DNA of 64,000 nucleotides from Planctomyces sp. (lineage in GTDB: Bacteria > Planctomycetota > Planctomycetia > Planctomycetales > Planctomycetaceae), in assembly GCA_016795105.1 (NCBI GenBank), contig JAEUIH010000041.1:1-64000 (forward strand), given 5' to 3'. Both the position numbers and the translations under genes were made by a program. Shown here piece after piece: positions 44,957-59,888 of this stretch. Numbering within the stretch: the stretch's first letter is position 1; every line of letters starts with the position of its first letter. A model generated the notes under the pieces. It was given only the letters and a program-made list of their open reading frames with translations, did not search any database and was not told the origin of the DNA.

Positions 44957-46294
44957 TTAAGATGGGTTGTTTTCGGCAGGGATGGGGCGGCCGTGGGGGT
45001 CGAGGGTGGGGGTGGCGGTTTGCTGGTCCAACCGGTCTCGAAGGTCGCGTCCTGTAAAGTGTTCCAGCTTCTCTGCCTGCTGGTGAATTCGCTCCGTGGA
45101 AACGCCCGCTTCGCTCACGAGGTATTGTTCCCAGAGTCTGTGCGATCGAACCAGCTCTGCGGCCTGTCGACGTCCTTTGTCGGTGAGCTGAAATCGACCT
45201 GAACCCGTCTGTCGAACAACGGTCCCGCTCATGCGATGATGACGCATTAGAAGCTGGGTCACGTAACGTCCAGACAGAAGGACGGTTCGCAGGTCATCTG
45301 TGGACGGGGCCAGATTGCCTGACCGCTCTTCCATGCGGTACATCAGAGCGATCAGATCCTCCGAGAGGATTCTCAACGACAACAGTTGCCGACGAACGAA
45401 CTGCGGAACGACGCCCTGATGTGGTGCAAAGAGCAGGGCGGTGACAAACAACAGGCCGGTTGTCAGTGCCATCATTCCTGAGGTACTCACGCTGCGATCG
45501 AAACCCAGCCATGGCGGAACTGCGATGGCGGAGATATGTCCAAGAGCTGCACCCACTGCTGCAATGACGCAACTCAGCAGGATCATCCGCCCAAGTCGGT
45601 CTGTCAGAAGTCTGGCTGTCGACGGAGGAACAACAAACATTGCTACGACAAGTATGTTTCCCACACTTTCAAACGAAGCAACAGCTGTCACCGCGACAAG
45701 AACCATCAGAAGGTAGTGCATGATCCATGCAGGAATTCCCTGAGTTGTGCCTAGTGCAGCGTCAAATGCACTCACCTGAAACTCCTTATAGAACACGCTG
45801 ACGGCGACAACGTTGACCATGAGCACGCCAGACAGCATCAGCACGACTCGGGGAATACGAAACTGACCAATACTCACCAAATCTTCCGGGATCGTCTCAA
45901 TTGATCCCGAAAGCACACACGACGGGTCAAGATCAACGTGGTCGGCCGCCTGAACAATCAGTATCAATCCAATGGCAAATAGTGTCGTGAAAACAACACC
46001 CATGGATGCGCCTTCGTCGACATCTCCAAACCCTCGAATCCACTCTGTAAACAAAGCCGTAAGCAATCCGGCAATGACTGCCCCGACGAGCATCGGAATG
46101 CTGCTGCGGCTGTTGCTGATAAAGAAAGCAATCGCGAGTCCAGGCAGAATTGCATGGCTGACCGCATCACCGAGCATGCTCATCCGTCGCAAGACAAGGA
46201 AGTTTCCAGGCAGTGCAGCCGCAACGGCACACAGTATTCCGGCGACGACAATCCAGCCATCCAGTGACGCATCCCATTTTGAGTACCAGTCCAT
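44957..46294 (-). CDS. Metal ABC transporter permease (ABC-3 type) fused to DtxR-like domain
   Basis: A 445-residue protein. The first 290 residues are a permease of the ABC-3 family for manganese, zinc or iron, with eight or so membrane segments and typical motifs (MLGDAVSHAILPGLAIAF, ATLLAI-type loop FTTLFAIGLILI, VGNILVVAMFVVPPSTARLL). After about residue 330 it continues as a soluble tail with a DtxR/MntR-like winged-helix and dimerisation pattern (GSGRFQLTDKGRRQAAELVR, HRLWEQYLVSEAGVS). This tail may sense metal and gate transport. It starts two bases after its paralogue. No ATP-binding or solute-binding partner gene is present in the window. Confidence 0.88.
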   Translation of the reverse strand: MDWYSKWDASLDGWIVVAGILCAVAAALPGNFLVLRRMSMLGDAVSHAILPGLAIAFFISNSRSSIPMLVGAVIAGLLTALFTEWIRGFGDVDEGASMGVVFTTLFAIGLILIVQAADHVDLDPSCVLSGSIETIPEDLVSIGQFRIPRVVLMLSGVLMVNVVAVSVFYKEFQVSAFDAALGTTQGIPAWIMHYLLMVLVAVTAVASFESVGNILVVAMFVVPPSTARLLTDRLGRMILLSCVIAAVGAALGHISAIAVPPWLGFDRSVSTSGMMALTTGLLFVTALLFAPHQGVVPQFVRRQLLSLRILSEDLIALMYRMEERSGNLAPSTDDLRTVLLSGRYVTQLLMRHHRMSGTVVRQTGSGRFQLTDKGRRQAAELVRSHRLWEQYLVSEAGVSTERIHQQAEKLEHFTGRDLRDRLDQQTATPTLDPHGRPIPAENNPS

Positions 46295-46296
46295 AG

Positions 46297-47841
46297 TTAC
46301 CTCAATGCATGCGGGCTGTTCGCCACGCCGTCAACAGACTGATGTTTTTCCAGCAATTGTTCGAGCTGTCGGACCATCTCCGGCCCGAGCACATGTTCAA
46401 TCGCGTCTGCTGCCTGATCGACTTTTGAAGGCGCAATCTCCGCATGTGTGATCAGGTACAATTCCCAGAGACGATGTTCATGGACAAGCCTTGCAGCCTC
46501 CACAAGCCCTGGTGCCGTCAGTGCGAACTGGGTGTCGGTTCCAATCAAATGACCTTCTCTGCGACTTCGAGCAATTTGCCGGCGCAGGCGGCGGGGTGTC
46601 CAGCTGCGGAGTTCCATCAGAGTGTCAAATGAAACATGTTCTGTTTCCCGACCGCGAGCAATTGTGACTTCGCCAATGCGAGTTTCCAGGACCTCGTAGA
46701 TGCCTCGCAGAAGATGCTGCCGATCAACCTCACGATTCAGCTTCCATTGTCGAATCCCTCGCTGCAGTATTCCTCTGGATGTCCCAAGCAGCATACTTGC
46801 GAAGAACAAAGCACTCGAAACGAGAACAATCATCGGACCACTTGGAAGCCCAGGAAATAATGCACTGATCACTGAACCAAGCCAGCCACTGACCAGCCCC
46901 ATAACAGAAGCAAGCCCAATCATAGATCGAATATTGTAAGTCCAGAAACGGGCTGCGGCAGCCGGTATGATTAACAGAGCAATCACAAGTACCAGCCCAA
47001 CAGCCTGCAATCCAACGACTGTCACAAGCAATACCAGCAACATCACGAGAACGTCGAGTATCAGGACCGGGTAACCTCGAGCTGCTGCAAAATCTTCGTC
47101 AAAGCAAAGCAGGACAAATTCTTTGAATAACAGCAACGAGATGCTGACACACACGACAGCGGTAATTCCAATGAGCCGGGCATCAGATGCAATCATCGAT
47201 GCCGTCTTGCCATAGATAAAGCCTTCCAAACCTGCCGCATTGCCGGAGGGAAGCTGCTGAATCACACTCAGCAGAACAACTCCCGCTCCAAAGAAGACAC
47301 TCAACACAATCCCAAGCGCCGCATCTTCGCGCAGGCGTGTCAGATGCCTGATCACCAGAATACAACTGGCTCCTGCGAGTCCACTCAGGGCCCCTCCGAT
47401 GAGCAGGACCGGAAGCGACTTTCCATCATAGCCGAGTGGTCCGGCAAGCAGAAATGCAACACAGACACCCGGTAATGATGCATGACTCAGAGCATCTCCC
47501 ATCAGGGCTCGACGACGGAGCAGTGCAAAGCTCCCAATCGTGCCGGCGGCCAGTCCCAGCAGCGAAGTGCCAATGACAACGACTCGAGTATTGTAATCCT
47601 TCAGCAACAGCACTCTGCTCCACTGTGTCCAGCTGGGCCACTCAACACTTCGGTCTGTCAGACTTCCCGAACGCTGATGATTCGAACGATATGCCTGTGG
47701 TGTTTCCGTCTGAACAGCCTCCGCCGCCACCAAGACTGCCGGAGCTGCAAACACCACCAGAATGAAAAAGACGTATGCTGCAAACCGAGTTGGCCGCAGA
47801 GGAACTTCCAGATATCCATTACTGAATCGCTGACCAGACAT
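46297..47841 (-). CDS. Metal ABC transporter permease (ABC-3 type) fused to DtxR-like domain
   Basis: A 514-residue paralogue of the permease at 44,957-46,294, with a longer N-terminus (a first membrane segment, FAAYVFFILVVFAAPAVLVA, that looks like a signal anchor). Permease motifs include RRALMGDALSHASLPGVCVA, SCILVIRHLTRLREDAALG and VGLVLVIALLIIPAAAARFW. The C-terminal tail (ALTAPGLVEAARLVHEHRLW, ELYLITHAEIAPSKVDQAAD) is again DtxR-like. The two may form a heterodimer. It follows hemB by eight bases, so haem synthesis and metal uptake may share a transcript. The ATPase and binding protein must be encoded elsewhere. Confidence 0.88.
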   Translation of the reverse strand: MSGQRFSNGYLEVPLRPTRFAAYVFFILVVFAAPAVLVAAEAVQTETPQAYRSNHQRSGSLTDRSVEWPSWTQWSRVLLLKDYNTRVVVIGTSLLGLAAGTIGSFALLRRRALMGDALSHASLPGVCVAFLLAGPLGYDGKSLPVLLIGGALSGLAGASCILVIRHLTRLREDAALGIVLSVFFGAGVVLLSVIQQLPSGNAAGLEGFIYGKTASMIASDARLIGITAVVCVSISLLLFKEFVLLCFDEDFAAARGYPVLILDVLVMLLVLLVTVVGLQAVGLVLVIALLIIPAAAARFWTYNIRSMIGLASVMGLVSGWLGSVISALFPGLPSGPMIVLVSSALFFASMLLGTSRGILQRGIRQWKLNREVDRQHLLRGIYEVLETRIGEVTIARGRETEHVSFDTLMELRSWTPRRLRRQIARSRREGHLIGTDTQFALTAPGLVEAARLVHEHRLWELYLITHAEIAPSKVDQAADAIEHVLGPEMVRQLEQLLEKHQSVDGVANSPHALR

Positions 47842-48971: not shown

Positions 48972-49991
48972 TCAGCCTGCAGAAGTGCGAACGTTGAAAT
49001 CGGGATCGACTTCGCTGAGGGCCCCGGTCGTCCGACATCGAGGACACGTTGCTTCTCTGGGCAGAATTCGGGGAAGGCACATAATCGACCCACAACCACA
49101 GAACAGCATATATGGGTTTTCACAATGTGCACACGGAGGACTTCCCATCAAAAGCTGCACCGGTACATCGGGGACATCCACAAAACCGCTGGAGGCACCT
49201 CCATCGGAGAGTTTATGGGATTCGACCGGCAAATAGACCTCGGCTTCCCGATCAAACCGGTATCGCATCAGATATGGCTGTTTAGTCGCAATACACCAGG
49301 CCTTCAGGAATACCTGAAGCGGGCGCCCCTGCCACGGTCGGAATTCTCCCTTTCTAACAGAAGTCACTTCTGCCGGACGCTTGGTCATGTCCAGCCCGTT
49401 GTAGCTCTCCGTCATCCCAACTCCGACACTAGCGCTTCGAACAGACGCAGTCAGCCAGATGAAGAGTTTCCGGAGTGTCTCTGGAGTCATGTCAGCGAGG
49501 CGAAATGTCGCGTCGCTGACTTCAGACAGCATGTCAAAGTCCACATCGTCTCCGCAACCGATGGAATAGAAGTTGGCAACTTTGGGCTGAGTTAGTCGGT
49601 CGACAGCCTGCTTCACCTGTCGCCAATCGTCTGTTGCCTGCCCATCCGTAAGAAGAAAGACGAGAGGGCGGTAGTCACCGCGACGCTGAGCTGTTGTCGT
49701 GACAACCTCCCCCTGAATGCAGTTTCTTAGAACCCCAAGTGCCTTTCCGAGGCTCGTTCCGGGGCGAACCTGCAGCTCGGGAATCTGAACGTCTGCCAGT
49801 TCCGTGAGCGGCACGACCTGCCGAGCGTCACTGTCAAATGTGATGATGCTGATCCATGCGGTCTCCAGTGCATGAGGATCGGTTCGTAAAGTATTCAGCA
49901 ACAGGCTCAATCCACTGCGAACGGACTGTACCGCTGACCCAATCATAGATTCAGATGTATCCAGCAATATATAGACCGGCAATCTTCGCAC
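48972..49991 (-). CDS. TerY-like vWA protein with C-terminal zinc-binding (TerY-C) domain
   Basis: A 339-residue protein. The frame is open upstream into the kinase gene, but the GTG at 49991 has AGGAG seven bases before it and gives the family start RRLPVYILLDTSESM. The vWA domain has an intact MIDAS: DTSESM, the Thr in RPGTSLG and the Asp in LLTDGQATDD. After about residue 210 comes a long linker, then a zinc-binding module with CAHCENPYMLFCGCGS and CPRCRTTG. TerY-C proteins act with a PP2C phosphatase and a kinase in chemical-stress (Ter) systems. It is the last gene of the eight-gene Ter unit and starts 46 bases after the kinase gene. Confidence 0.87.
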   Translation of the reverse strand: MRRLPVYILLDTSESMIGSAVQSVRSGLSLLLNTLRTDPHALETAWISIITFDSDARQVVPLTELADVQIPELQVRPGTSLGKALGVLRNCIQGEVVTTTAQRRGDYRPLVFLLTDGQATDDWRQVKQAVDRLTQPKVANFYSIGCGDDVDFDMLSEVSDATFRLADMTPETLRKLFIWLTASVRSASVGVGMTESYNGLDMTKRPAEVTSVRKGEFRPWQGRPLQVFLKAWCIATKQPYLMRYRFDREAEVYLPVESHKLSDGGASSGFVDVPDVPVQLLMGSPPCAHCENPYMLFCGCGSIMCLPRILPREATCPRCRTTGALSEVDPDFNVRTSAG

Positions 49992-50037
49992 GACTGGTCT
50001 CCTGTCACAGAAATCGCAAGAACGAGCTACCTTCGAA

Positions 50038-51534
50038 TCAGGACTGAACCATTTGCACCTGCAGCAGTCGTCCACCTTCGTCCGGTGAAAGCAGGATCTG
50101 AAGATCCTGTTTCAGCTCGATCGCTGAGTTGACTGCAACATCCACACCATCTGTCAGGTTTCGCAGTGTGCTAAGTCTTTGATTGACGAATAACCACTTA
50201 CCGCCATGAAACTTGAAATAACCAACTGGCTTCCGATCTGAATCTGACAGCCTTTCGTTGGGAAAAATGGTCCGATTCACATGCCATGGATACAGATACT
50301 GGTCGTTGTAGACCATCAGTCTGTGGTTATCCGGCGTGAACTTTCCCTTACCACGACTCGAGTAGAGATTGAGAATCGGCAGGATTCCACGAAAGGGAGT
50401 GCCGCAAAACGGACATCGCGGAGCGGTTGTATTGTCAAACACGTACCATTTCTGCTCACAGGCTGAATTTGTACACGGCTGAAGCAAGTCAACTGTTTTC
50501 ACAAGTGCTCGCTCCCAGTTATCCGCCGTTGGCCTCAATTCCGGGCGATGCAGCCCTTCCACAAATGCCTTCAAAAACAGTTCCGTCAGGTATGGACCAG
50601 TAACTTTAAAGGGAACCTTTGAGATATCTGCCCACGGAAGTTCACTCTTGCGTATTTGTGACAGGTTTGGACGATTACTGACATCCGTCGGATGTTCGAT
50701 GAAGACCGCATTTCGTCCCATCGCGAGTTCTTCATCCACCTGTGGATCGGCGTCATGAACTTTTCCGCCCCGTAGAGGATGCCGGTACAAGAGGTACATA
50801 TAGATCAGAACAGACAACGCATGCTGGTCCGTTTCTCTCCGCGGCAATGCCCGATTTCTGTCATCTTTCGCGAGCTTCAAAGTCGCCATGACTTCCGGAG
50901 CGATAAAATCGGGCGTCCCGACAACATCAGGAGGATACTTTCCGGGTACCACAAGCCCGTCAATATCGATGATACATGCATCACCTCGGGATGGATCGAC
51001 AAGCACATTCTTGTAGGACAGATCACTGTGTGCAAGCCCGGCCGCATGCAGGCGTTTTACAGCTCGGCTGATTTTGATACACGTCGTTATATATGAACGC
51101 CAGTTACCGCGCTCTTTCGGGTCAAGGTATTTGGTTTGGTGTGTCGCGGATGCAAACCACTTGCCCTCTTTCTCTTTGCCTCGGATTCCCAGAAAATCGT
51201 TCTGGCGTGAACCAAATTCGAAGAAGAAGTTGCCTCGATAAGCAGGTGCAACGATACCGAGTCTCCCCTCATGCTCAACAAGTCGCTCAGGCCAACAGAA
51301 CAAGTCTTTCCAGTACCCGCCTCCCGGTTGATCAAAGATTCGCTCTCGATATGTTCCAACCAGGTTCTCAAGTCTCTGTCGAGCATTGAAATCCTGAGGA
51401 GTTCTGTAAAACGCCACAACGTAAGAACGATCCGGTGAGAAATAGACGTCCTTCATTGCTCCTGCGCCGACAAGATCATCCACGAACTGAATTTCAGTCC
51501 CATCGGTGGCTTTCAGCTGAACGATTCGTCCCAT
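50038..51534 (-). CDS. Atypical Ter-associated protein kinase with C-terminal zinc ribbon
   Basis: A 498-residue kinase of the TerY-P triad. The glycine loop is VGAGAMKDVYFS. The usual ATP-binding lysine (VAIK) is replaced by VVAFYR, but a lysine (Lys28) sits inside the glycine loop. The catalytic loop is HSDLSYKNVLVD (Asp171, Asn176) and the metal site is IIDIDGLV in place of DFG. APH-like kinases have similar catalytic loops. A zinc ribbon near residue 375 has CTNSACEQKW and CPFCGTPF. C-terminal to it is a region with PDNHRLMVYNDQYLYPWHVN. It starts 11 bases after the PP2C gene stop and is likely co-transcribed with it. Activity is probable, not shown. Confidence 0.85.
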   Translation of the reverse strand: MGRIVQLKATDGTEIQFVDDLVGAGAMKDVYFSPDRSYVVAFYRTPQDFNARQRLENLVGTYRERIFDQPGGGYWKDLFCWPERLVEHEGRLGIVAPAYRGNFFFEFGSRQNDFLGIRGKEKEGKWFASATHQTKYLDPKERGNWRSYITTCIKISRAVKRLHAAGLAHSDLSYKNVLVDPSRGDACIIDIDGLVVPGKYPPDVVGTPDFIAPEVMATLKLAKDDRNRALPRRETDQHALSVLIYMYLLYRHPLRGGKVHDADPQVDEELAMGRNAVFIEHPTDVSNRPNLSQIRKSELPWADISKVPFKVTGPYLTELFLKAFVEGLHRPELRPTADNWERALVKTVDLLQPCTNSACEQKWYVFDNTTAPRCPFCGTPFRGILPILNLYSSRGKGKFTPDNHRLMVYNDQYLYPWHVNRTIFPNERLSDSDRKPVGYFKFHGGKWLFVNQRLSTLRNLTDGVDVAVNSAIELKQDLQILLSPDEGGRLLQVQMVQS

Positions 51535-51545
51535 GGTGATTTATC

Positions 51546-53135
51546 TCATCGAGGCATTAAGATGGCGAGTGTTCGGTCGTCGTGGTTTCCTCGCGACCAG
51601 AAGTTCAGCCATTCCAACAACTGTTGCTCAGGTTTCTCTCCATTGAAGTCAATCTCCGTTCTTAACTCTTCCCACAATCCCGACCAATACGAGGAATCCC
51701 TGAAATTGTCGTCGGTTTGAAATTTCGGGTCCGAAACGCCGTCTGTCATCGACAATACGGCCGTAAATCGACCGACAATATCAAATCGAATTCTTCGAAG
51801 AATTTCATCTCCACTCACCCAGACATCTCGGGATGTGATAAATCTCGTCTGACCAGCATAAGCGCCTCCGTCCGGGACATTCAAGACGATTGTCTCGTGA
51901 GCATTACCATCATCTGAACCATCACAGTAGATACCGACGCCACCATCTCCAATACCAAACGTCGCAACAAACGTCCCAAACGCATACCGGCGCACGATTG
52001 TCAATAGTACTGTTGCTGCAAAGTCATTCTCAGAAGCCCCTTCTATTCTCCCTGCTTCTTCAGCAATTGCCCTTTGAGCAGTCTTTGCGGCAGGCGCGAG
52101 AGTTCGATACAGAGCACTCTGAAGTGATCGGAGGCTCTCTGCACGGTCATTGTTGAAATACCGTTCACAGTTTTTCTCGAAACTCCCATCTGCCTCAACC
52201 GCGACAAGTGCCGGGAGTATCGTTCGCCCCGCAGTCTCACAGACAAGTCTTGATCCCTGTCGGGAATACTTTGCTGACCCGGCACCGTCAGAGACGATCA
52301 TGACAGACCACCCGCTCGAAGAATCATGCACGACCTTAACATCATCTTCCCGAAACGTGCCGTCATGCGCATGAGATCTGCCGCGACGACTGGCAGCGAT
52401 TATCAAATGATCTTTCGCTTCTACACGTAGCGCGAGCGTGTGAGGCGTGCGGAATGGAAGTCCGTCCGCTGGTTCAATTTCTTTCCATAGTGCCCGAGGA
52501 TCGGGATTCACGAAGAGACTGATCGGCTTGTCTCTCCGAATCTCCGGCTTGGTGCGACGCCCCCCACTGGAGTCTTCGATTTCCTGAGCAGGATGGCAAA
52601 CCTCTACAATCAGTTGTTTCTGTCCGGATCCGACGAGTATTCCTTCGAACGTCAGTTGATCCCCGCTGTATGTCATCTGCAGCCCGGTACCGCAATTGTC
52701 CTTCAGATCGAAGTAGCCAAGCGGCGCGACCGAACCAAACAATGTCGATGCGGAAACAGTCTCGCGGTAAAGCTTCCCCTCGTTTCCGTTCGGGAGACTT
52801 CGTGATTCTGTCGAATGCAGACAGAATCTGTATCGTTGAGTTCTGTTGCCAAACGCCAGGACATCTCTGTCTTTCAGCCGAATGTCTCGAGCAGCAACTG
52901 GCTTGTCATTAACCCAGCTTTCGGCCCCCTCCAGCGGATGAAATCGCCAGAATTCTCCTTCGTGAATCAATTCGGCGTGTTTCCCTTTCACGCCGTCGCC
53001 CGAAATCTGCACCATGTTCTGTGAAGTACGACTCTCGGTCCCGACAATCACACGAACAGCACTCAGCTCGAAGTGATCGTCGGTACCTGAGACACCATTC
53101 AATTTCTCGAGGCGTGCCTTGATGATCACTTCCAT
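51546..53135 (-). CDS. FHA-PP2C protein phosphatase of the Ter triad
   Basis: A 529-residue protein (ATG at 53135; GAGGA upstream). The first 110 residues look like an FHA phosphothreonine-binding domain (SAVRVIVGTESRT, GKHAELIHEGEFWRFHPLEG, WVNDKPV, LKDRDVLAFG), although the usual SxxH motif reads KGKH. A linker of about 130 residues follows. The PP2C domain starts near residue 250 with GRSHAHDGTFREDDVKVV, then VIVSDGAGSAKYSRQGS (Asp metal ligands), FATFGIGDGGVGIYCDG, FTAVLSMTDGVSDPKFQ and the closing NHDDRTLAILMPR. It should reverse phosphorylation by the adjacent kinase. The FHA domain would target it to phosphorylated partners. Confidence 0.85.
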   Translation of the reverse strand: MEVIIKARLEKLNGVSGTDDHFELSAVRVIVGTESRTSQNMVQISGDGVKGKHAELIHEGEFWRFHPLEGAESWVNDKPVAARDIRLKDRDVLAFGNRTQRYRFCLHSTESRSLPNGNEGKLYRETVSASTLFGSVAPLGYFDLKDNCGTGLQMTYSGDQLTFEGILVGSGQKQLIVEVCHPAQEIEDSSGGRRTKPEIRRDKPISLFVNPDPRALWKEIEPADGLPFRTPHTLALRVEAKDHLIIAASRRGRSHAHDGTFREDDVKVVHDSSSGWSVMIVSDGAGSAKYSRQGSRLVCETAGRTILPALVAVEADGSFEKNCERYFNNDRAESLRSLQSALYRTLAPAAKTAQRAIAEEAGRIEGASENDFAATVLLTIVRRYAFGTFVATFGIGDGGVGIYCDGSDDGNAHETIVLNVPDGGAYAGQTRFITSRDVWVSGDEILRRIRFDIVGRFTAVLSMTDGVSDPKFQTDDNFRDSSYWSGLWEELRTEIDFNGEKPEQQLLEWLNFWSRGNHDDRTLAILMPR

Positions 53136-53196
53136 CACACAATCCTCAAATCAACATGTTTCATTGAAAACTTCGATCGAATTCACGGTGCCAGGC

Positions 53197-53832
53197 TCAC
53201 AGTACCGGATTCACGTCGACCGGAGGGGGCGGAAGAATCACCTCAGACGTGACTCCGATACTGGAGGAATTCACCTCTATCGATGAACTCACCCACCGAA
53301 ACAGTGATTCAAACGATGTGCTGTCCATCGTTTCAAGCGTGTACACACGATCTGTCAGGCGTCGAAGTTCATCAGGTTTTGCCTTCGCTCCCGCGGCACA
53401 CGCAATCACAACACCAAACTTCCTCCGCCGAACTTCTTCGATGGCTTCTTCAAACGCCTGCTTATCCGATGCGGCACCATCTGTCATAATGAACAAAATC
53501 GGCCGCCAGTCACCTTTTACCGACGCGTTCGACTTCTGAACTTCCCGATCAACCTGCCGGCACACGTCTTTTAACGCTCGCCCGAGATGAGTCGGTCCGG
53601 AATCCGGAGGAACCAACTCCGGCACCAGAAACTGCTCCACAGGAGTCAGGGGAACGAGTACTTTGACATAGGCATAAAATGTGATAATCGACAGGTGTAC
53701 GGAATCCAGAGCAAGTGGATCCTGTCTGAGCGAATCAACCATCGCCCTCAGACCCGCGCGAACCGATTCGATCGGTTCTCCTCGCATCGAACCCGATGTA
53801 TCGAGCAGTAAATAGACCGGCAGTCGACGCAT
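53197..53832 (-). CDS. TerY-like von Willebrand factor A protein
   Basis: A 211-residue vWA protein starting MRRLPVYLLLDTSGSM. The MIDAS is complete: DTSGSM, the Thr in SGPTHLG and the Asp in IMTDGAASD. No signal peptide is seen, so it should be cytosolic. The C-terminus is a proline-rich tail, LPPPPVDVNPVL, which parallels the tail of the next TerY gene (LPPPPPEIDVVGL). TerY proteins bind metal through MIDAS and are thought to assemble with TerD, kinase and phosphatase. It lies between the PP2C gene (61 bases) and its paralogue (48 bases). Confidence 0.88.
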   Translation of the reverse strand: MRRLPVYLLLDTSGSMRGEPIESVRAGLRAMVDSLRQDPLALDSVHLSIITFYAYVKVLVPLTPVEQFLVPELVPPDSGPTHLGRALKDVCRQVDREVQKSNASVKGDWRPILFIMTDGAASDKQAFEEAIEEVRRRKFGVVIACAAGAKAKPDELRRLTDRVYTLETMDSTSFESLFRWVSSSIEVNSSSIGVTSEVILPPPPVDVNPVL

Positions 53833-53880
53833 ATTGGTTGTCCATCTACATTCTTATGACATCTACCGTCCAAACGCTGC

Positions 53881-54522
53881 TCAAAGCCCCACAACGTCTA
53901 TTTCAGGAGGAGGTGGTGGAAGTTCACTCAGTCCCCCGACATCATTGTGTGATGTCTCAACTTTTTGACTTCCTGTACTGATGGACGCAGAGACCCATTT
54001 GAAGAATGCTGCGATTGCACCGGAATCGGCGGAATTCAGTCGAACAACGGCCTCACCGCAGACTTCAGCGAGCACCGCAGTGTCAGCGCTATCGACTGCA
54101 CATCCCACAACAATTCCCCATTTTTCCTGTCGGAATCTGCCCAGAGCCTTCTTCCAGTCGTCTGTTGGCTGTCCGTCAGTCATGATAAAGACCATCGGTT
54201 TCCAGTCACCTTTGACGGAAGCAGAGGATTTCGTCACTTCCTGCGATGCTCGTTCGGCGACGAGTTGAAGAGCTTCGCCAAAGGCCGTCGTGCCGCTTGC
54301 AGACAGTCCCGGCGGCTGAAATGCGGACAGCTCAGTTAGTGGGACCAGTTGAGTCGCCGAGTTTCCAAAACCGATCACACTTAAGTAGGCAGTTTCCAGT
54401 GCATAAGGATCCTGCCGCAACGCTGAGACCAGCATTTGAACGCCATTTTTCACCTGCTCAATCGGCTCTCCGGTCATTGAACCAGATGTATCAAGCACCA
54501 AATAAACCGGTAGTCTTCTCAT
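53881..54522 (-). CDS. TerY-like von Willebrand factor A protein
   Basis: A 213-residue protein from the ATG at 54522 (the frame opens at 54540, within terD). It starts MRRLPVYLVLDTSGSM. MIDAS residues are in DTSGSM, SGTTAFG and FIMTDGQPTDDWKK. It is close to its neighbour TerY (shared SASVKGDWKP/R core, proline-rich tail LPPPPPEIDVVGL). It begins seven bases after the terD stop, so translation is probably coupled. Cytosolic. As in other Ter systems, it likely forms a complex with TerD. Confidence 0.9.
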   Translation of the reverse strand: MRRLPVYLVLDTSGSMTGEPIEQVKNGVQMLVSALRQDPYALETAYLSVIGFGNSATQLVPLTELSAFQPPGLSASGTTAFGEALQLVAERASQEVTKSSASVKGDWKPMVFIMTDGQPTDDWKKALGRFRQEKWGIVVGCAVDSADTAVLAEVCGEAVVRLNSADSGAIAAFFKWVSASISTGSQKVETSHNDVGGLSELPPPPPEIDVVGL

Positions 54523-54529
54523 GAACAGG

Positions 54530-55093
54530 TTACCCCTCACTCACAGCATAATACTGATCAACGACGTACTGAAGCCCGCCATTAAAGGCCCGACCAACCG
54601 CCTCAAATCGCCATGTATCAGCTTTCCGATACAAACGCCCGAATTCAACAGCCGATTCAATGGAAAAGTCTTCGTCCAGTTCATATCGACACAACTCAGT
54701 GCCGTTCGATTCGTCAGTGATACGGATATATGAATTTCGGACCTGGCCAAAATTCTGTTTCCGTTCTTCATACTCGTGAATCGAAACGACCACCAGAATC
54801 TCTTCCACGCGCGACGCAACTTGCGTGAGGTCAACGTGGGCAACCTCGTCATCGCCGTCTCCTGCTCCGTCAAGGGAATCTCCCTCAAGTCGGACACTTC
54901 CATCCGGAGACGCAAGATTATTGTAGAAAATGAAATGACCGTCTTCGACCACTTTCCCACTCTGCAGCAGGCACAATGAGACATCAAGATCGAATGGAGC
55001 TCCCGACGTCGAGTTCGGATTCCAGCCTAACCCCAGACGCACCTTACGAAGTCCAACTTCAACACGCTGCCCTTTTTTGAGATTCAGTACCAT
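54530..55093 (-). CDS. TerD-family calcium-binding stress protein
   Basis: A 187-residue TerD protein from the ATG at 55093; the frame opens at 55117. Calcium-binding features are present: LGWNPNSTSGAPFDLDVSL, GAGDGDDEVAHVDL, and the conserved FGQVRNSYIRITDE and CRYELDEDFSIESAVEFGRL. The last part, YRKADTWRFEAVGRAFNGGL, is the usual TerD ending. TerD proteins bind calcium and are linked to tellurite, oxidative and other chemical stress. It starts 32 bases after its paralogue, terD at 55,126-55,677, and is followed seven bases later by a terY gene. Confidence 0.93.
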   Translation of the reverse strand: MVLNLKKGQRVEVGLRKVRLGLGWNPNSTSGAPFDLDVSLCLLQSGKVVEDGHFIFYNNLASPDGSVRLEGDSLDGAGDGDDEVAHVDLTQVASRVEEILVVVSIHEYEERKQNFGQVRNSYIRITDESNGTELCRYELDEDFSIESAVEFGRLYRKADTWRFEAVGRAFNGGLQYVVDQYYAVSEG

Positions 55094-55125
55094 TTCCGCT
55101 GATCTCCCCAGATGCAAGCTTGAGT

Positions 55126-55677
55126 TCAGGATACATACTTATCCACAAAATACTGCAACCCACCTTCATAACCTCGGCCAACAGCTTCGAATCGCCACGC
55201 GCTATTTCTTCTGTAGAGTCTCCCGAATTCGATCGCACTTTCTACTGAGAAGTCTTCATCGAGCTCATATTTACAGAGTTCATTACCCGAGATGATGTCA
55301 TAGATCCGAATGAAAGAGTTTCGAACCTGGCCGAAATTCTGGCGGCGTGTTTCGTACTCGTGAATCGTTACGACAATAATGATCTCATCAACCTCAGGAT
55401 CGACGGCCGACATATCCACCTGAATCGTCTCGTCATCACCGTCGCCAACACCGTCGAGCGCATCACCCATGTGCTGCACTGCGTGATCTGCAGACACCAG
55501 ATTGTTGTAGAAAACAAAATAGCCTTCTTCCGGGATCTTTCCGTTCCGCAGCATAAACGCAGAGGCATCAAGATCAAAGGCGGCCCCAGTTCCGTCGTTC
55601 GGATCCCATCCGAGTCCGACAGCTACCTTCTGAAGCCCAACTTCAACTCTCTGACCTTTCTTAAGATCAATCGCCAT
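55126..55677 (-). CDS. TerD-family calcium-binding stress protein
   Basis: A 183-residue TerD protein; the frame is open from 55776 but the ATG at 55677 has GAGGAG upstream and gives MAIDLKKGQRVEVGL, the standard family start. Key motifs are LGWDPNDGTGAAFDLDASAF, GVGDGDDETIQVDM and FGQVRNSFIRIYD, then CKYELDEDFSVESAIEFGRL. It is about 70 per cent identical to the next TerD by eye. It begins 47 bases after the P-type ATPase gene. The conserved Asp-rich stretches make calcium binding likely. Confidence 0.94.
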   Translation of the reverse strand: MAIDLKKGQRVEVGLQKVAVGLGWDPNDGTGAAFDLDASAFMLRNGKIPEEGYFVFYNNLVSADHAVQHMGDALDGVGDGDDETIQVDMSAVDPEVDEIIIVVTIHEYETRRQNFGQVRNSFIRIYDIISGNELCKYELDEDFSVESAIEFGRLYRRNSAWRFEAVGRGYEGGLQYFVDKYVS

Positions 55678-55724
55678 CTCTCTGCTCCTCGATGTCTCGT
55701 TGTTTTGACCCGGTTCATGAACCC

Positions 55725-58700
55725 CTATGGCGTTCCCGAAGATCGTTTCAGAAAGCGGATAACTTCTCCGACCCAAAGTACGGTTGATGTGGATGCGGTG
55801 ATGATCAGCCAGTCTTTCAGATCCAGTGGAACCGTTCGAAACAAAGAACCGCCGAACTGAACGATGAGGACCTGCCCAATGAAAATCGCGGCTGCAATCA
55901 TGACAAATCCGCGGTTATGCCAGAATCCGGAGAGGGCGGATCGAGTCATTCCGAGGCAGCGTGCGTTGAACATATTCCAGAACTGCAGCAAAACGAAGAC
56001 CGAGAAGAAGATCGAGTGATATCGATTCGGTGCTTCATCTTTCCCCAGATTCAGTTCATCACTCCACGCCAGCAGCAGCCCAATCAAAACCACAACAAAC
56101 ACTGCCGCCGTGGAAAAGATCCCGGTGGCCATCGGCTTTGTGACAATGAAGGCCTGCGGGTGTCGGGGGGGACGATTCAGGACGCCTTCGTGAGGTGGTT
56201 CCGTCGCGAGGGCAAGCGCTGCAAACGTGTCCATGATGAGATTCACCCACAACATCTGAATCACCGTCAGGGGCAGCTCCACTCCAATAAACGGACCAAG
56301 CAAAGCAATGACAAGGGCCGCTACGTTAATTGTCAACTGGAACAAAATGAATCGCTGAATATTTTCGTACAGGGACCGTCCCCACATCACGGCCTTCACA
56401 ATGGTCGCAAACGAATCATCCAGAAGAATAATATCACTGGCTTCCTTTGCCGCCGCTTTTCCGGTCTTGCCCATTGCCAGCCCAACATCGGCATAATTCA
56501 GAGCACCGCAGTCATTAATCCCATCACCCGTCACGGCAACCACTTCACCCTGCTTCTGCAGTGATCGAACGAGTCGCACTTTATCCATCGGCTTGGCTCG
56601 CGAGAGTACACTCAACGCGGATGCCGCAGGTCCAACAGCTTCATCTGACAAATCCTGAAAGGCCGCTCCGGCGAGATGCTGTTGTGTACCGCCGGACGGG
56701 TTGTAGAGTCCAATCTGCCGCCCAATTTCCTGGGCAGTGTCGGCGTTGTCTCCAGTGACCATTTTGACCTGAATTCCCGCTCGACGGCACGATTCCATCG
56801 CTGCCGGAACATCCGATCGAATCGGATCGGCAATCGCAAAGAAACCCAGCCACGTCAGATTTGTCGCGGCCGTCTCAATGTTCATTCCCTCGGCGTACGG
56901 CAGGTCTTCATGCACAGCAATTCCCAGGGTTCTCATTCCTCGAGCCTGGAAATCAACCATCCGAGCACGAATTGCATTCAGCTCCCCGTCAATGGCTTTG
57001 TCGCCGGACGTGGTTCGCACTTTGGAACACCTCTGCAGGACAATCTCTGGTGCGCCTTTCACATGGAACACCGGCCTGCCGGATCTTGATGAGACCCCCA
57101 TGGTCCCCATCCACTTACGTTCCGTGGAAAATGTCAGCTGATATGTCACATTGAAGGAATCGCGTTCCTTCACGTAATCAATTCCGTCCTTTGCCAACCA
57201 GAACAGAAGGGCACCTTCTGTTGGATTTCCAAGCACCTGAAGATCACCTTTTTCATTGTGTGACAAGTGGGCAGTCGTGTTGGTGCTCACGCTCTCCACA
57301 ATCGTCCGTGCTGCATCAGATGCTGCGGATGGTTTCCCGTCCGGCAGCGATGGGAATACAGCTTCAAAGACCCGCATCTCATTCATCGTCAGGGTGCCGG
57401 TCTTGTCAGAGCAGATGACAGTCGCAGCTCCGATGGTCTCGCAGGCGTGCATCTTGCGAACCAGCGTATTGGCGGCCGTCATTTTACGCATACTGTATGC
57501 AAGACTCAGAGTCACACTCATCGCAAGTCCTTCAGGGACCGCAACCACGATGATTGTCACAGCGATCATGAAGTATGACAGAAACTTCCCAAGCGCACCT
57601 TCCGGAAGCCAGTTGCCTGGCGCTGACGGAATCCATCCGGAGGCAACTCCTCCGCCAAGTCCCACGGCCATCAACAAAGCGCCTCCACCAATCAGCATCA
57701 GCCATTGACGAAGCTCACTGCTGCCACCACTTTCACTGCCTCCATCAGTCTTCGCAGCCGCGTCTGCTTCTCCCTCGTCATCATCGTCACCGCCCAGCCA
57801 TGCAGGCGCTTCAATACCGAATGCCAGTTCCAGACCGTCGTAGACCATCGGCAGCCATACTTTGCAAAGTGCCACAGCAAGGCCCACGGCAACAATCCCA
57901 AAGACGCCCCATTGAGACGATGTCAGCGTCAGATCTCCGAGTACAACGCCTCGGACGATCAGCGCCACAAATGTGGCCACTGCCATGAACAAGCCCACAA
58001 CTCCGATCACTTTGCTGAGAGCTGCCAGCTGTCGATTGAGTGGAGTTTCTTCACCTGTATCTTCTGATGCTGCGCGGGCCGTCTTTCCGATTTCGCTTCC
58101 ATCGCCAACTGCAGATGCTTCGAACAAGCCGTGACCATCCAGGACCATTGCACCGCGAAGCACAAAGTCGCACGGATAAGTGGTCTTTCTCATGGTCGCC
58201 TTCTTCGGGCTGTTTCTGGCAACCTTGTCCGCCGGCTCAGATTCTCCTGTCAGGCCGGATTCATTGATCTGAAGTCCGACGGCTTCAAACAGATTTCCGT
58301 CTGCCGGTACTTCTTCTCCGGCTTCGATCAGAACAAGGTCTCCGACAACGATGTCCTTCCGGGGAATGGACGTGAACTTGCCATCTCGAATGACACGAAT
58401 GGGCACATCATCGCTGACCTGATTCAGCACATCAAATTCTTTGTTCGCTTTAAATTCGTTGGCGAAGGCCAGCACAGTTGCCAGGAGAACTGCGGTAATG
58501 ATCCCGATACCTTCGAGATATTCACCATGGACTGATCCAGCCGCAATTGCGATGACGGCAGCGATCAGAAGAATTCGAATCACAGGGTCGTCAAATTTCT
58601 CCAGAAACAGCTTCCACCATGGGTCACGTGCCGGTGGAGTGATCACGTTTGCTCCGTGAAGCGACCGGCTTTTCAGTACCTCGTCGGCTGTCAATCCCTG

Positions 58701-58739
58701 ACGATTGGTTTCGGACGAATCAATTCCACTGGGTGACAT
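55725..58739 (-). CDS. P-type ATPase, calcium-transporting type
   Basis: A 1004-residue P-type ATPase resembling PMCA/SERCA-type calcium pumps. Actuator motif: LTGESEPADK. Phosphorylation site: CSDKTGTLT (Asp445). Nucleotide and hinge motifs: KGAPE, VTGDNADTAQEIG and VAVTGDGINDCGAL. Ion site: VPEGLAM in M4 and the NLIMDTFAALALAT stretch in M6. Between M3 and M4 is an unusual insertion (about residues 270-385) with two extra hydrophobic segments and the acidic loop GGDDDDEGEADAAAKTDGG. It should expel Ca2+ (or a similar ion) from the cytosol. It leads the unit terD-terD-terY-terY-PP2C-kinase-terYC. The membrane part of this Ter locus is therefore an ion pump rather than TerC. Confidence 0.9.
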   Translation of the reverse strand: MSPSGIDSSETNRQGLTADEVLKSRSLHGANVITPPARDPWWKLFLEKFDDPVIRILLIAAVIAIAAGSVHGEYLEGIGIITAVLLATVLAFANEFKANKEFDVLNQVSDDVPIRVIRDGKFTSIPRKDIVVGDLVLIEAGEEVPADGNLFEAVGLQINESGLTGESEPADKVARNSPKKATMRKTTYPCDFVLRGAMVLDGHGLFEASAVGDGSEIGKTARAASEDTGEETPLNRQLAALSKVIGVVGLFMAVATFVALIVRGVVLGDLTLTSSQWGVFGIVAVGLAVALCKVWLPMVYDGLELAFGIEAPAWLGGDDDDEGEADAAAKTDGGSESGGSSELRQWLMLIGGGALLMAVGLGGGVASGWIPSAPGNWLPEGALGKFLSYFMIAVTIIVVAVPEGLAMSVTLSLAYSMRKMTAANTLVRKMHACETIGAATVICSDKTGTLTMNEMRVFEAVFPSLPDGKPSAASDAARTIVESVSTNTTAHLSHNEKGDLQVLGNPTEGALLFWLAKDGIDYVKERDSFNVTYQLTFSTERKWMGTMGVSSRSGRPVFHVKGAPEIVLQRCSKVRTTSGDKAIDGELNAIRARMVDFQARGMRTLGIAVHEDLPYAEGMNIETAATNLTWLGFFAIADPIRSDVPAAMESCRRAGIQVKMVTGDNADTAQEIGRQIGLYNPSGGTQQHLAGAAFQDLSDEAVGPAASALSVLSRAKPMDKVRLVRSLQKQGEVVAVTGDGINDCGALNYADVGLAMGKTGKAAAKEASDIILLDDSFATIVKAVMWGRSLYENIQRFILFQLTINVAALVIALLGPFIGVELPLTVIQMLWVNLIMDTFAALALATEPPHEGVLNRPPRHPQAFIVTKPMATGIFSTAAVFVVVLIGLLLAWSDELNLGKDEAPNRYHSIFFSVFVLLQFWNMFNARCLGMTRSALSGFWHNRGFVMIAAAIFIGQVLIVQFGGSLFRTVPLDLKDWLIITASTSTVLWVGEVIRFLKRSSGTP

Positions 58740-58850
58740 GGAGAATTCCTGTGCAGATACAGTGCCTGCATCTCAAAAAGGCGGGATCAATGCGGAGTTG
58801 TTGAGAAACCTGAAGTTTCAGCAGCAGATCAAGAGGACCTGAAGGTAAAT

Positions 58851-58886
58851 AAAAAATCCCGATTCCCGTGAAGTTCAGGAATCGGG
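58851..58886 (-). terminator. Rho-independent terminator between terB pair and ATPase
   Basis: On the minus strand the arms CCCGATTCC (58886-58878) and GGAATCGGG (58866-58858) pair perfectly and are followed by ATTTTTTATTT. It lies 20 bases after the stop of the second terB gene. The two terB genes therefore form a unit of their own, or read through only in part. Confidence 0.8.
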
Positions 58887-58905
58887 GCCTGTCCGATACG
58901 CCCAA

Positions 58906-59349
58906 TCAACCTCTGTTCTTAATGACCATCACACGGATGATCTTGAGGCACTGGTCTTTGTCGAGATTCAGTTTGTTCATCAGGTTGCCAAGAAATTCTC
59001 GTTCATCCTGCTCAACTGTCCCATCGGCCAGCACAATATTACATGCGTTTGCAAACACACATTCATTGAGTTCGGGTGGAACCACTGGAGCCACTTCTTC
59101 CAGGAGCTTCTCCGGACCACCACGTTTCAGAATCCCCATCAGTCGATCCATCATCGAATTAAACTGTTGAGGAGTTGTACGCTGATAGAGCTTCATTCTT
59201 CCGAGCGCTACCATCAGGCTCTGAACTTCTTCGTCGGCAATATGACCATCACACGCTGATGCACAAAGCAGAACACCGGCGACACCTTCATGAGGTCCCA
59301 TCGGCCGTTTATCTGAAAATGAACCAAATGCTTCATCAAAAATATCCAC
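58906..59349 (-). CDS. TerB-family stress protein
   Basis: A 147-residue protein. The frame starts at an ATG at 59364, but the GTG at 59349 has GGAGA six bases upstream and gives the same length as its paralogue, so it is preferred (first residues VDIFDEAFGSF). TerB core motifs are present: GVAGVLLCASACDGHIADEE, VQSLMVALGRMKLYQRT and ACNIVLADGTVEQDEREF. TerB is an all-helical cytosolic protein, possibly a metal sensor, that works with TerD. It ends 20 bases before a terminator. Confidence 0.9.
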   Translation of the reverse strand: MDIFDEAFGSFSDKRPMGPHEGVAGVLLCASACDGHIADEEVQSLMVALGRMKLYQRTTPQQFNSMMDRLMGILKRGGPEKLLEEVAPVVPPELNECVFANACNIVLADGTVEQDEREFLGNLMNKLNLDKDQCLKIIRVMVIKNRG

Positions 59350-59444
59350 AGAGGCTCTCCTCATTGTTGCTGAAAACTGAAGATTGATGCGAAGACAAAT
59401 CTGAAAACACGGTCAGGGAGATTTCGGGACATGGCCTCCAGACC

Positions 59445-59888
59445 CTAGCCTCGGTTCTTTGAAACCATCACCTGAACAATTTCCAGAGCTTGTTCTTTGC
59501 TGATGCGGAGCCGATTACGAACGAGTTCAATAAACTCCTTCTCGTCCTGCTCAACAACGCCATCTGCAAGGACAATGTCACACGCATTGGCAAAGGCAGT
59601 TTCGCGAAGATTGTCCGGCATTGATTCGACGCACTTGTCGATTAGATGTTCAACGCCCTTCTTCTTAATGATACCGACCAGTTTGTTCAGCATCTGACCA
59701 AACTGTTTGCCATCAAAACGGCGAAACATCTTCATGCGAACGAGAGTCGTAATGAGATTGTCGACTTCGTCTTCGGCGATGTGACCATCGCACGCACTGG
59801 CCCCGAGCAGTACTCCGGCAAACGCTTCATGCTCTGAAAATTTGCCGGAAGCTTCCATTCCGCCAAACAGGGAATCAAACAGCCCCAT
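59445..59888 (-). CDS. TerB-family stress protein
   Basis: A 147-residue TerB protein, first gene of the Ter cluster. It begins MGLFDSLFGGMEASGKF. The TerB core is AFAGVLLGASACDGHIAEDE, LITTLVRMKMFRRFDGKQFG, and ACDIVLADGVVEQDEKEF, the same layout as its neighbour and with the same ending VMVSKNRG. The Asp/Glu-rich segments (DGHIAEDEVD and DGVVEQDEKE) form two symmetrical acidic sites consistent with metal binding. It is 95 bases from the other terB gene. The 164-base gap upstream, shared with the divergent amidase gene, should hold the promoter. Confidence 0.93.
   Translation of the reverse strand: MGLFDSLFGGMEASGKFSEHEAFAGVLLGASACDGHIAEDEVDNLITTLVRMKMFRRFDGKQFGQMLNKLVGIIKKKGVEHLIDKCVESMPDNLRETAFANACDIVLADGVVEQDEKEFIELVRNRLRISKEQALEIVQVMVSKNRG

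Follow-up and report, generated by a model that had tools for sequence, protein, structure and literature searches.

The TerY-P triad and the Ter systems were reportedly described by Anantharaman, Iyer and Aravind in 2012 (Mol Biosyst 8:3142). Tellurite is hardly a natural substrate of the Ter systems. TerC and TerD together are reported to be a minimal functional unit, with TerC handling Zn2+ and Mn2+ (PMC12054061). Here we analysed a 64,000-nucleotide stretch of Planctomyces sp. (assembly GCA_016795105.1, contig JAEUIH010000041.1, positions 1 to 64,000; the whole stretch is referred to as the window), which carries an eight-gene Ter/TerY-P run headed by the gene of a PMCA-type Ca2+-ATPase. 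Like the TerY-P/Ter systems described in 2012, the locus has an adjacent set of TerD, vWA/TerY, TerY_C, PP2C and kinase genes; unlike them, it has a PMCA-type Ca2+-ATPase pump, no TerC in the locus and no HAD/PRTase_3 metabolite module. On balance we favour the reading that the eight genes are a horizontally scattered operon in which a Ca2+-exporting ATPase replaces TerC, and which would serve Ca2+-sensing, phospho-controlled export and homeostasis.

Ca2+ exporters in the position of TerC

Comparison of 93 mapped loci found TerC in 33, a Ca2+-ATPase in 14, a Na+/Ca2+ exchanger in five and TerC with a decayed ATPase in one; 19 had none of these, mainly in Enterobacteria and Chromatiaceae, and 21 of the 93 were cut by contig ends. 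The exchanger (PF01699) occupies the slot in L016, L018, L043 (=G351) and L086; that of L098, encoded 2.7 kb away on the other strand, is to be discounted among the five. By raw counts, the exclusivity of TerC and Ca2+ exporters was strong. A rough estimate also indicated that the linkage of Ca2+ exporters is very unlikely to be due to chance, although it assumed the number of exporter genes per genome, was made on related loci and is a guide only.

In genomes G260 and G032, as in the window, terD directly follows the ATPase gene. In the Verrucomicrobiota genome G1004 the ATPase gene itself comes directly after the kinase gene; in Bacteroidales loci it is found downstream of the kinase, usually via HAD and PRTase_3 genes. 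An ATPase tree required at least six changes between Ter-linked and unlinked states, and the G032 pump formed a separate lineage apart from all the others, its long branch being uncertainly placed. At least two lineages have supplied Ter-linked ATPases, which stand at two positions. Co-inheritance of one Ter-specific ATPase clade was ruled out, as linked and unlinked ATPases were intermingled in the tree. In locus L014 (236-1928), a broken ATPase remnant with about 60% identity to the window pump (residues 9-53 and 72-172) was found before TerC-terD; it is possibly the fossil of an exporter swap, or, lying on a contig of a metagenome-assembled genome (MAG), an assembly fault.

The pair of HAD phosphatase and PRTase_3 genes is a proposed Ter metabolite module. 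It was found between the kinase and Ca2+-ATPase genes in the Bacteroidales loci L021, L025, L035 and L069, and is missing from the window locus.

Neighbouring genes were tallied without regard to function, using 108 non-core same-strand genes from Bacteroidota, Planctomycetota, Verrucomicrobiota and one Myxococcota locus, after exclusion of very long open reading frames (ORFs) and of loci nearly identical to one another. Pfam families that recurred were P-type Ca2+-ATPase (10), PRTase_3 (10), TerC (8), TelA (5), DUF475 (4), AIM24 (4) and Na_Ca_ex (4). Among the families shown for these genes no other transporter class had more than two matches, and CDF, ZIP, P1B-ATPase and MntP were absent from the recurrent neighbours. 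These counts bear on two other explanations. The locus could be an ordinary Ter/TerY-P stress module with the Ca2+-ATPase as one passenger transporter among many, of no Ca2+-specific meaning. Its core genes and their order do match the known TerY-P triad, thousands of enterobacterial plasmids carry copies about 61% identical to its kinase (see below) and members of its ATPase family are common away from Ter loci; but other transporters were not comparably enriched in the tally, and the same slot is occupied by Ca2+ exporters of unrelated kinds, from two PMCA lineages and from CaCA, so we regard this explanation as unlikely. Alternatively, the exporter slot might be a general one for divalent cations (Mn2+/Zn2+ with TerC, Ca2+ here), metal or redox stress being sensed and any exporter sufficing. 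TerC is indeed the commonest partner, and in K. pneumoniae it makes cells resistant to Te(IV), Zn(II) and Mn(II), with ter induced by Zn and Mn (PMC12054061). The partners other than TerC, however, are all of Ca2+ type, and the lack of recurrent exporters for other cations makes a general slot rather doubtful.

Ca2+ exporters are the recurrent alternative to TerC, and this appears to be the new part of our observations. Since unrelated Ca2+ exporters replace TerC in several phyla, the Ter system may work on calcium. The repeated replacement offers a specific and testable answer to the question of what Ter systems do, namely Ca2+ efflux under phospho-control.

Gene organisation and transcription units

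The first-pass annotation of this DNA had described a ten-gene minus-strand locus at 48972-59888. All ORFs were confirmed in place, and profile searches agreed with the family names given for all of them, terB2 being marginal but a clear paralogue of terB1. The features are as follows:

55725..58739, minus strand, PMCA-type Ca2+-translocating P-type ATPase, 1004 aa (TIGR01517, 683 bits against a cut-off of 507)
55126..55677, minus strand, terD1, 183 aa (PF02342; E-values of the TerD pair 1e-65 and 5e-68)
54530..55093, minus strand, terD2, 187 aa (PF02342; Ca2+-ligand motifs as in terD1)
53881..54522, minus strand, vwa1, TerY-type vWA protein, 213 aa, MIDAS intact (PF00092, 3e-14)
53197..53832, minus strand, vwa2, TerY-type vWA protein, 211 aa, MIDAS residues conserved (PF00092, 8e-14)
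51546..53135, minus strand, FHA-PP2C protein phosphatase, 529 aa (PF13672, PP2C_2, 8e-32; PF00498, FHA, 2.5e-5)
50038..51534, minus strand, atypical protein kinase with C-terminal zinc ribbon, 498 aa (PF00069, Pkinase, 1e-9)
48972..49991, minus strand, vWA and TerY_C zinc-binding protein, 339 aa, GTG start (PF00092, 1.7e-13; PF15616, 6e-12; Cys conserved)
59445..59888, minus strand, terB1, TerB-like, 147 aa (PF05099, 4.5e-8)
58906..59364, minus strand, terB2, TerB-like, 152 aa (PF05099, 6e-5, 23.8 bits against a Pfam cut-off of 24.4; 50% identity to terB1)
58858..58886, minus strand, intrinsic terminator-like hairpin between terB2 and the ATPase gene (11-bp stem with 7 GC pairs, T-rich tail)

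The starts of terD1, terD2, vwa1 and the vWA-TerY_C gene (GTG) were revised to those listed, and because better start codons were chosen no gene overlap is present. The vWA, PP2C and kinase genes are neighbours on one strand and the TerY_C zinc domain is carried by a vWA protein, as in the TerY-P triad; TerD paralogues are present as in a classic Ter operon, but TerC is missing from the eight-gene run. The first-pass statement that TerC is absent holds for the locus but not for the genome, whose single TerC gene sits on another contig. A search for Rfam elements found none.

Within the eight-gene run (58739-48972), whose last gene encodes the vWA-TerY_C protein, the gaps are 47, 32, 7, 48, 61, 11 and 46 bp; this spacing is operon-like, and the run, headed by the ATPase gene, reads as one operon. 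The gap between terB2 and the ATPase gene is 166 bp and holds the hairpin and T-run at 58886-58858. In the terminator scan overall, sites were no more numerous than in shuffled sequences, and this hairpin is distinguished solely in having a GC-rich stem of 11 bp and a T-tail and in lying between genes. Because of this terminator, we treated the terB pair, which adjoins the run yet lies behind the hairpin, as probably a separate transcription unit. The ten-gene locus as a single transcription unit is not supported, given the terminator and the free-standing terB pairs of other planctomycetes, including TerD-less relatives.

The Ca2+-ATPase

By its TIGR01517 score and its Ca2+-site motifs, the pump is a PMCA-type Ca2+-ATPase and is predicted to transport Ca2+. 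It has PEGL in M4, the DKTGT phosphorylation site and NLIMDT in M6, and its nearest solved structures are plant and animal plasma-membrane Ca2+-ATPases. Between M3 and M4 there is an insert of about 120 aa (residues about 263-382), in which hydropathy analysis revealed two additional hydrophobic segments, linked by an acidic GGDDDDEGEAD sequence that was found in the window copy only. The insert is common to most Ter-linked Bacteroidales pumps and to unlinked Planctomycetota pumps, and is absent from L033, L059 and L139. An AlphaFold model of the ATPase placed the insert helices at 274-307 and 340-366, but with a mean pLDDT of 51 it is too poor to be relied on.

TerD, TerB and the TerY-P triad

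The Ca2+ sites of K. pneumoniae TerD consist of residues 40-42, 78, 79, 89 and 29, 82, 84, 88 (PMC8779313). These align with FDLD and GD...GDGDDE in terD1 and terD2, and the ligands D40, D42, D78, D88 and E89 are intact in both; in a set of 184 TerD sequences, few positions are as well conserved as these. A Streptomyces TerD-domain gene influences Ca2+ homeostasis, according to work cited in PMC8123226.

Tandem terB pairs were also found in planctomycetes G121, G024, G205 and G1059, of which G024 yielded no TerD when searched and G121 was outside the five TerD-bearing genomes. Because a Na+/Ca2+ exchanger gene adjoins the pair in G205 (L238, 6533-9077) and G024 (L239, 7874-10711), a role for TerB pairs in serving Ca2+ exporters is likewise suggested, though by a small sample.

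In the mapped loci the core order terD-terD-vWA-vWA-(vWA_TerY_C)-PP2C-kinase-(vWA_TerY_C) was found almost everywhere, being kept in Bacteroidota, Verrucomicrobiota, Pseudomonadota, Myxococcota and enterobacterial plasmids. The kinase residues H169-S-D171-L-S-Y-K-N176, D190/D192 and C354/C359/C374/C377 are conserved in 89 relatives, and the catalytic Asp residues of the PP2C in 88. The kinase retains HxDxxxxN and the following Asp, and since Arg/Lys stands where the strict beta-3 lysine is expected, its label as atypical is fair. The MIDAS residues D17, S19, S21, T85 and D122 of vwa1 (numbered on a longer ORF, +6 aa) are conserved in relatives, and so are the metal-site residues of the vWA and TerY_C protein, in the window as in relatives.

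Distribution and horizontal transfer

Kinase matches were found in 10 of 392 Planctomycetota genomes, about six of them close, and in none of the other genomes of its own family sampled among the 392; TerD was present in five. The kinase was similarly rare in Bacteroidota (4/248 genomes) and Verrucomicrobiota (4/241). Yet 372 relatives of it were found in species-level genomes, the best 80 of these being from Bacteroidota, Verrucomicrobiota, Pseudomonadota and Myxococcota with 60-68% identity. The nearest came from a Verrucomicrobiota MAG, a Pedosphaera, which carries locus L014. Further matches were found in 2344 plasmid records, mainly enterobacterial, and the window kinase is about 61% identical to these plasmid copies. 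Because the run is rare and patchy within phyla yet spread across phyla, it is probably a horizontally moved module and no planctomycete trait. A conserved planctomycete operon is ruled out by the counts for the kinase and TerD. The first-pass idea of a planctomycete system is accordingly not supported; gene order, which it had proposed to check in relatives, is kept across phyla, though in planctomycete genomes the run itself is rare.

Relatives retain hemB, but none of the other tested flanking genes beside it, so comparison at hemB gave no clean empty insertion site. Just past hemB, at 44957-47841 of the window, a pair of ABC-3 metal-transporter permeases is encoded in succession; both carry, as a fusion, the metal-binding domain of iron-dependent repressors (DtxR/MntR-type).

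Patchy distribution is also compatible with transfer of an anti-phage or biological-conflict function, in which ion efflux would be a membrane response. Ter operons (terC, terD) have been tied to phage inhibition (PMC12054061) and found in jumbo phages (PMC7824862), and the Jug phages encode a Ca2+ P-type ATPase as well as terD (PMC12363816). However, PADLOC gave only weak kinase-domain matches, none meaningful for membership of a defence system, and no defence gene was recognised among the flanking genes scanned. We consider such a function quite improbable.

Proposed mechanism

In the Ca2+-export reading that we favour, the two TerD proteins would act as Ca2+-binding sensors that signal an increase of Ca2+ in the cytosol, or a stress causing one. 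The kinase and the FHA-PP2C phosphatase would set the phosphorylation state of at least one target, the three vWA/TerY proteins would be MIDAS-metal adaptor scaffolds at the membrane, and the output would be the pump extruding Ca2+; over the related loci, the phospho-switch would be coupled to an exchangeable exporter of divalent cations. The upstream tandem terB, probably a separate unit, may also serve a Ca2+ exporter. The sequences themselves show the gene content, the operon-like spacing, an order kept across phyla, the recurrent linkage of Ca2+ exporters and intact Ca2+-ligand and catalytic residues; Ca2+ sensing by the window TerD proteins, control of the pump, the way the signal runs and the triggering stress are what we infer. 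The first-pass annotation had proposed a calcium-linked phosphosignalling stress response; its calcium link gained from the PMCA-type pump, the TerD ligands kept and the recurrence of Ca2+ exporters without TerC in several phyla, whereas the stress response and the phosphosignalling are still interpretation.

Several points weigh against this reading. The loci surveyed were chosen by kinase similarity, many are MAG contigs, and some genomes contributed more than one contig. With phylogeny controlled, there were too few independent pairs for the exclusivity with TerC to reach significance. Near the Dysgonomonas loci L022 and L024 there is no Ca2+ exporter, the pump being elsewhere in the genome. 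Members of the ATPase family of the window stand by themselves in other Planctomycetota and on plasmids of cyanobacteria; because its family is found outside Ter loci, the pump is a recruited general Ca2+-ATPase, and Ter loci take up existing exporters, not a dedicated one. Finally, gene linkage does not equal regulation.

If the reading is true, a kinase/phosphatase-coupled Ca2+ pathway would be added to the few known bacterial Ca2+ signalling systems. A broader and speculative extension, to which we give little credence, is that Ter/TerY-P is at root bacterial Ca2+ signalling, with TerD as sensor, the triad as switch and an interchangeable exporter, be it a Ca2+-ATPase, a Na+/Ca2+ exchanger or TerC, as effector, tellurite resistance being a side effect.

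Comparison with known systems

The Ter genes and the kinase/PP2C/vWA set had been recognised from other bacteria in the first-pass annotation, and the core is the known TerY-P triad with TerD. The ter cluster of the enterobacterial plasmid pKP-14-2-131-NDM-1 (NZ_MZ836808) has the same vWA-TerD-vWA-TerY_C-PP2C-kinase block, with a kinase about 61% identical, but no Ca2+-ATPase is listed within 16 kb of that kinase. PMCA1/PMCA2, plant plasma-membrane Ca2+-ATPase 8 and Listeria lmo0841 share DKTGT, PEGL in M4 and NLIMDT in M6 with the window pump, which differs from the solved PMCA-type pumps in the M3-M4 stretch of about 120 residues with two extra hydrophobic segments and in having its gene within a Ter operon. 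The literature searched, Anantharaman et al. 2012 not being part of it, contained no description of the recurrent variant with a Ca2+ exporter. The nearest report is that of the Jug huge gut phages, which like the window have terD genes and a Ca2+ P-type ATPase in one genome, but in which the two were reported in separate co-transcribed regions and not interpreted jointly (PMC12363816). The TerY-P module is already known, and its recurrent variant with a predicted Ca2+ exporter appears to be new.

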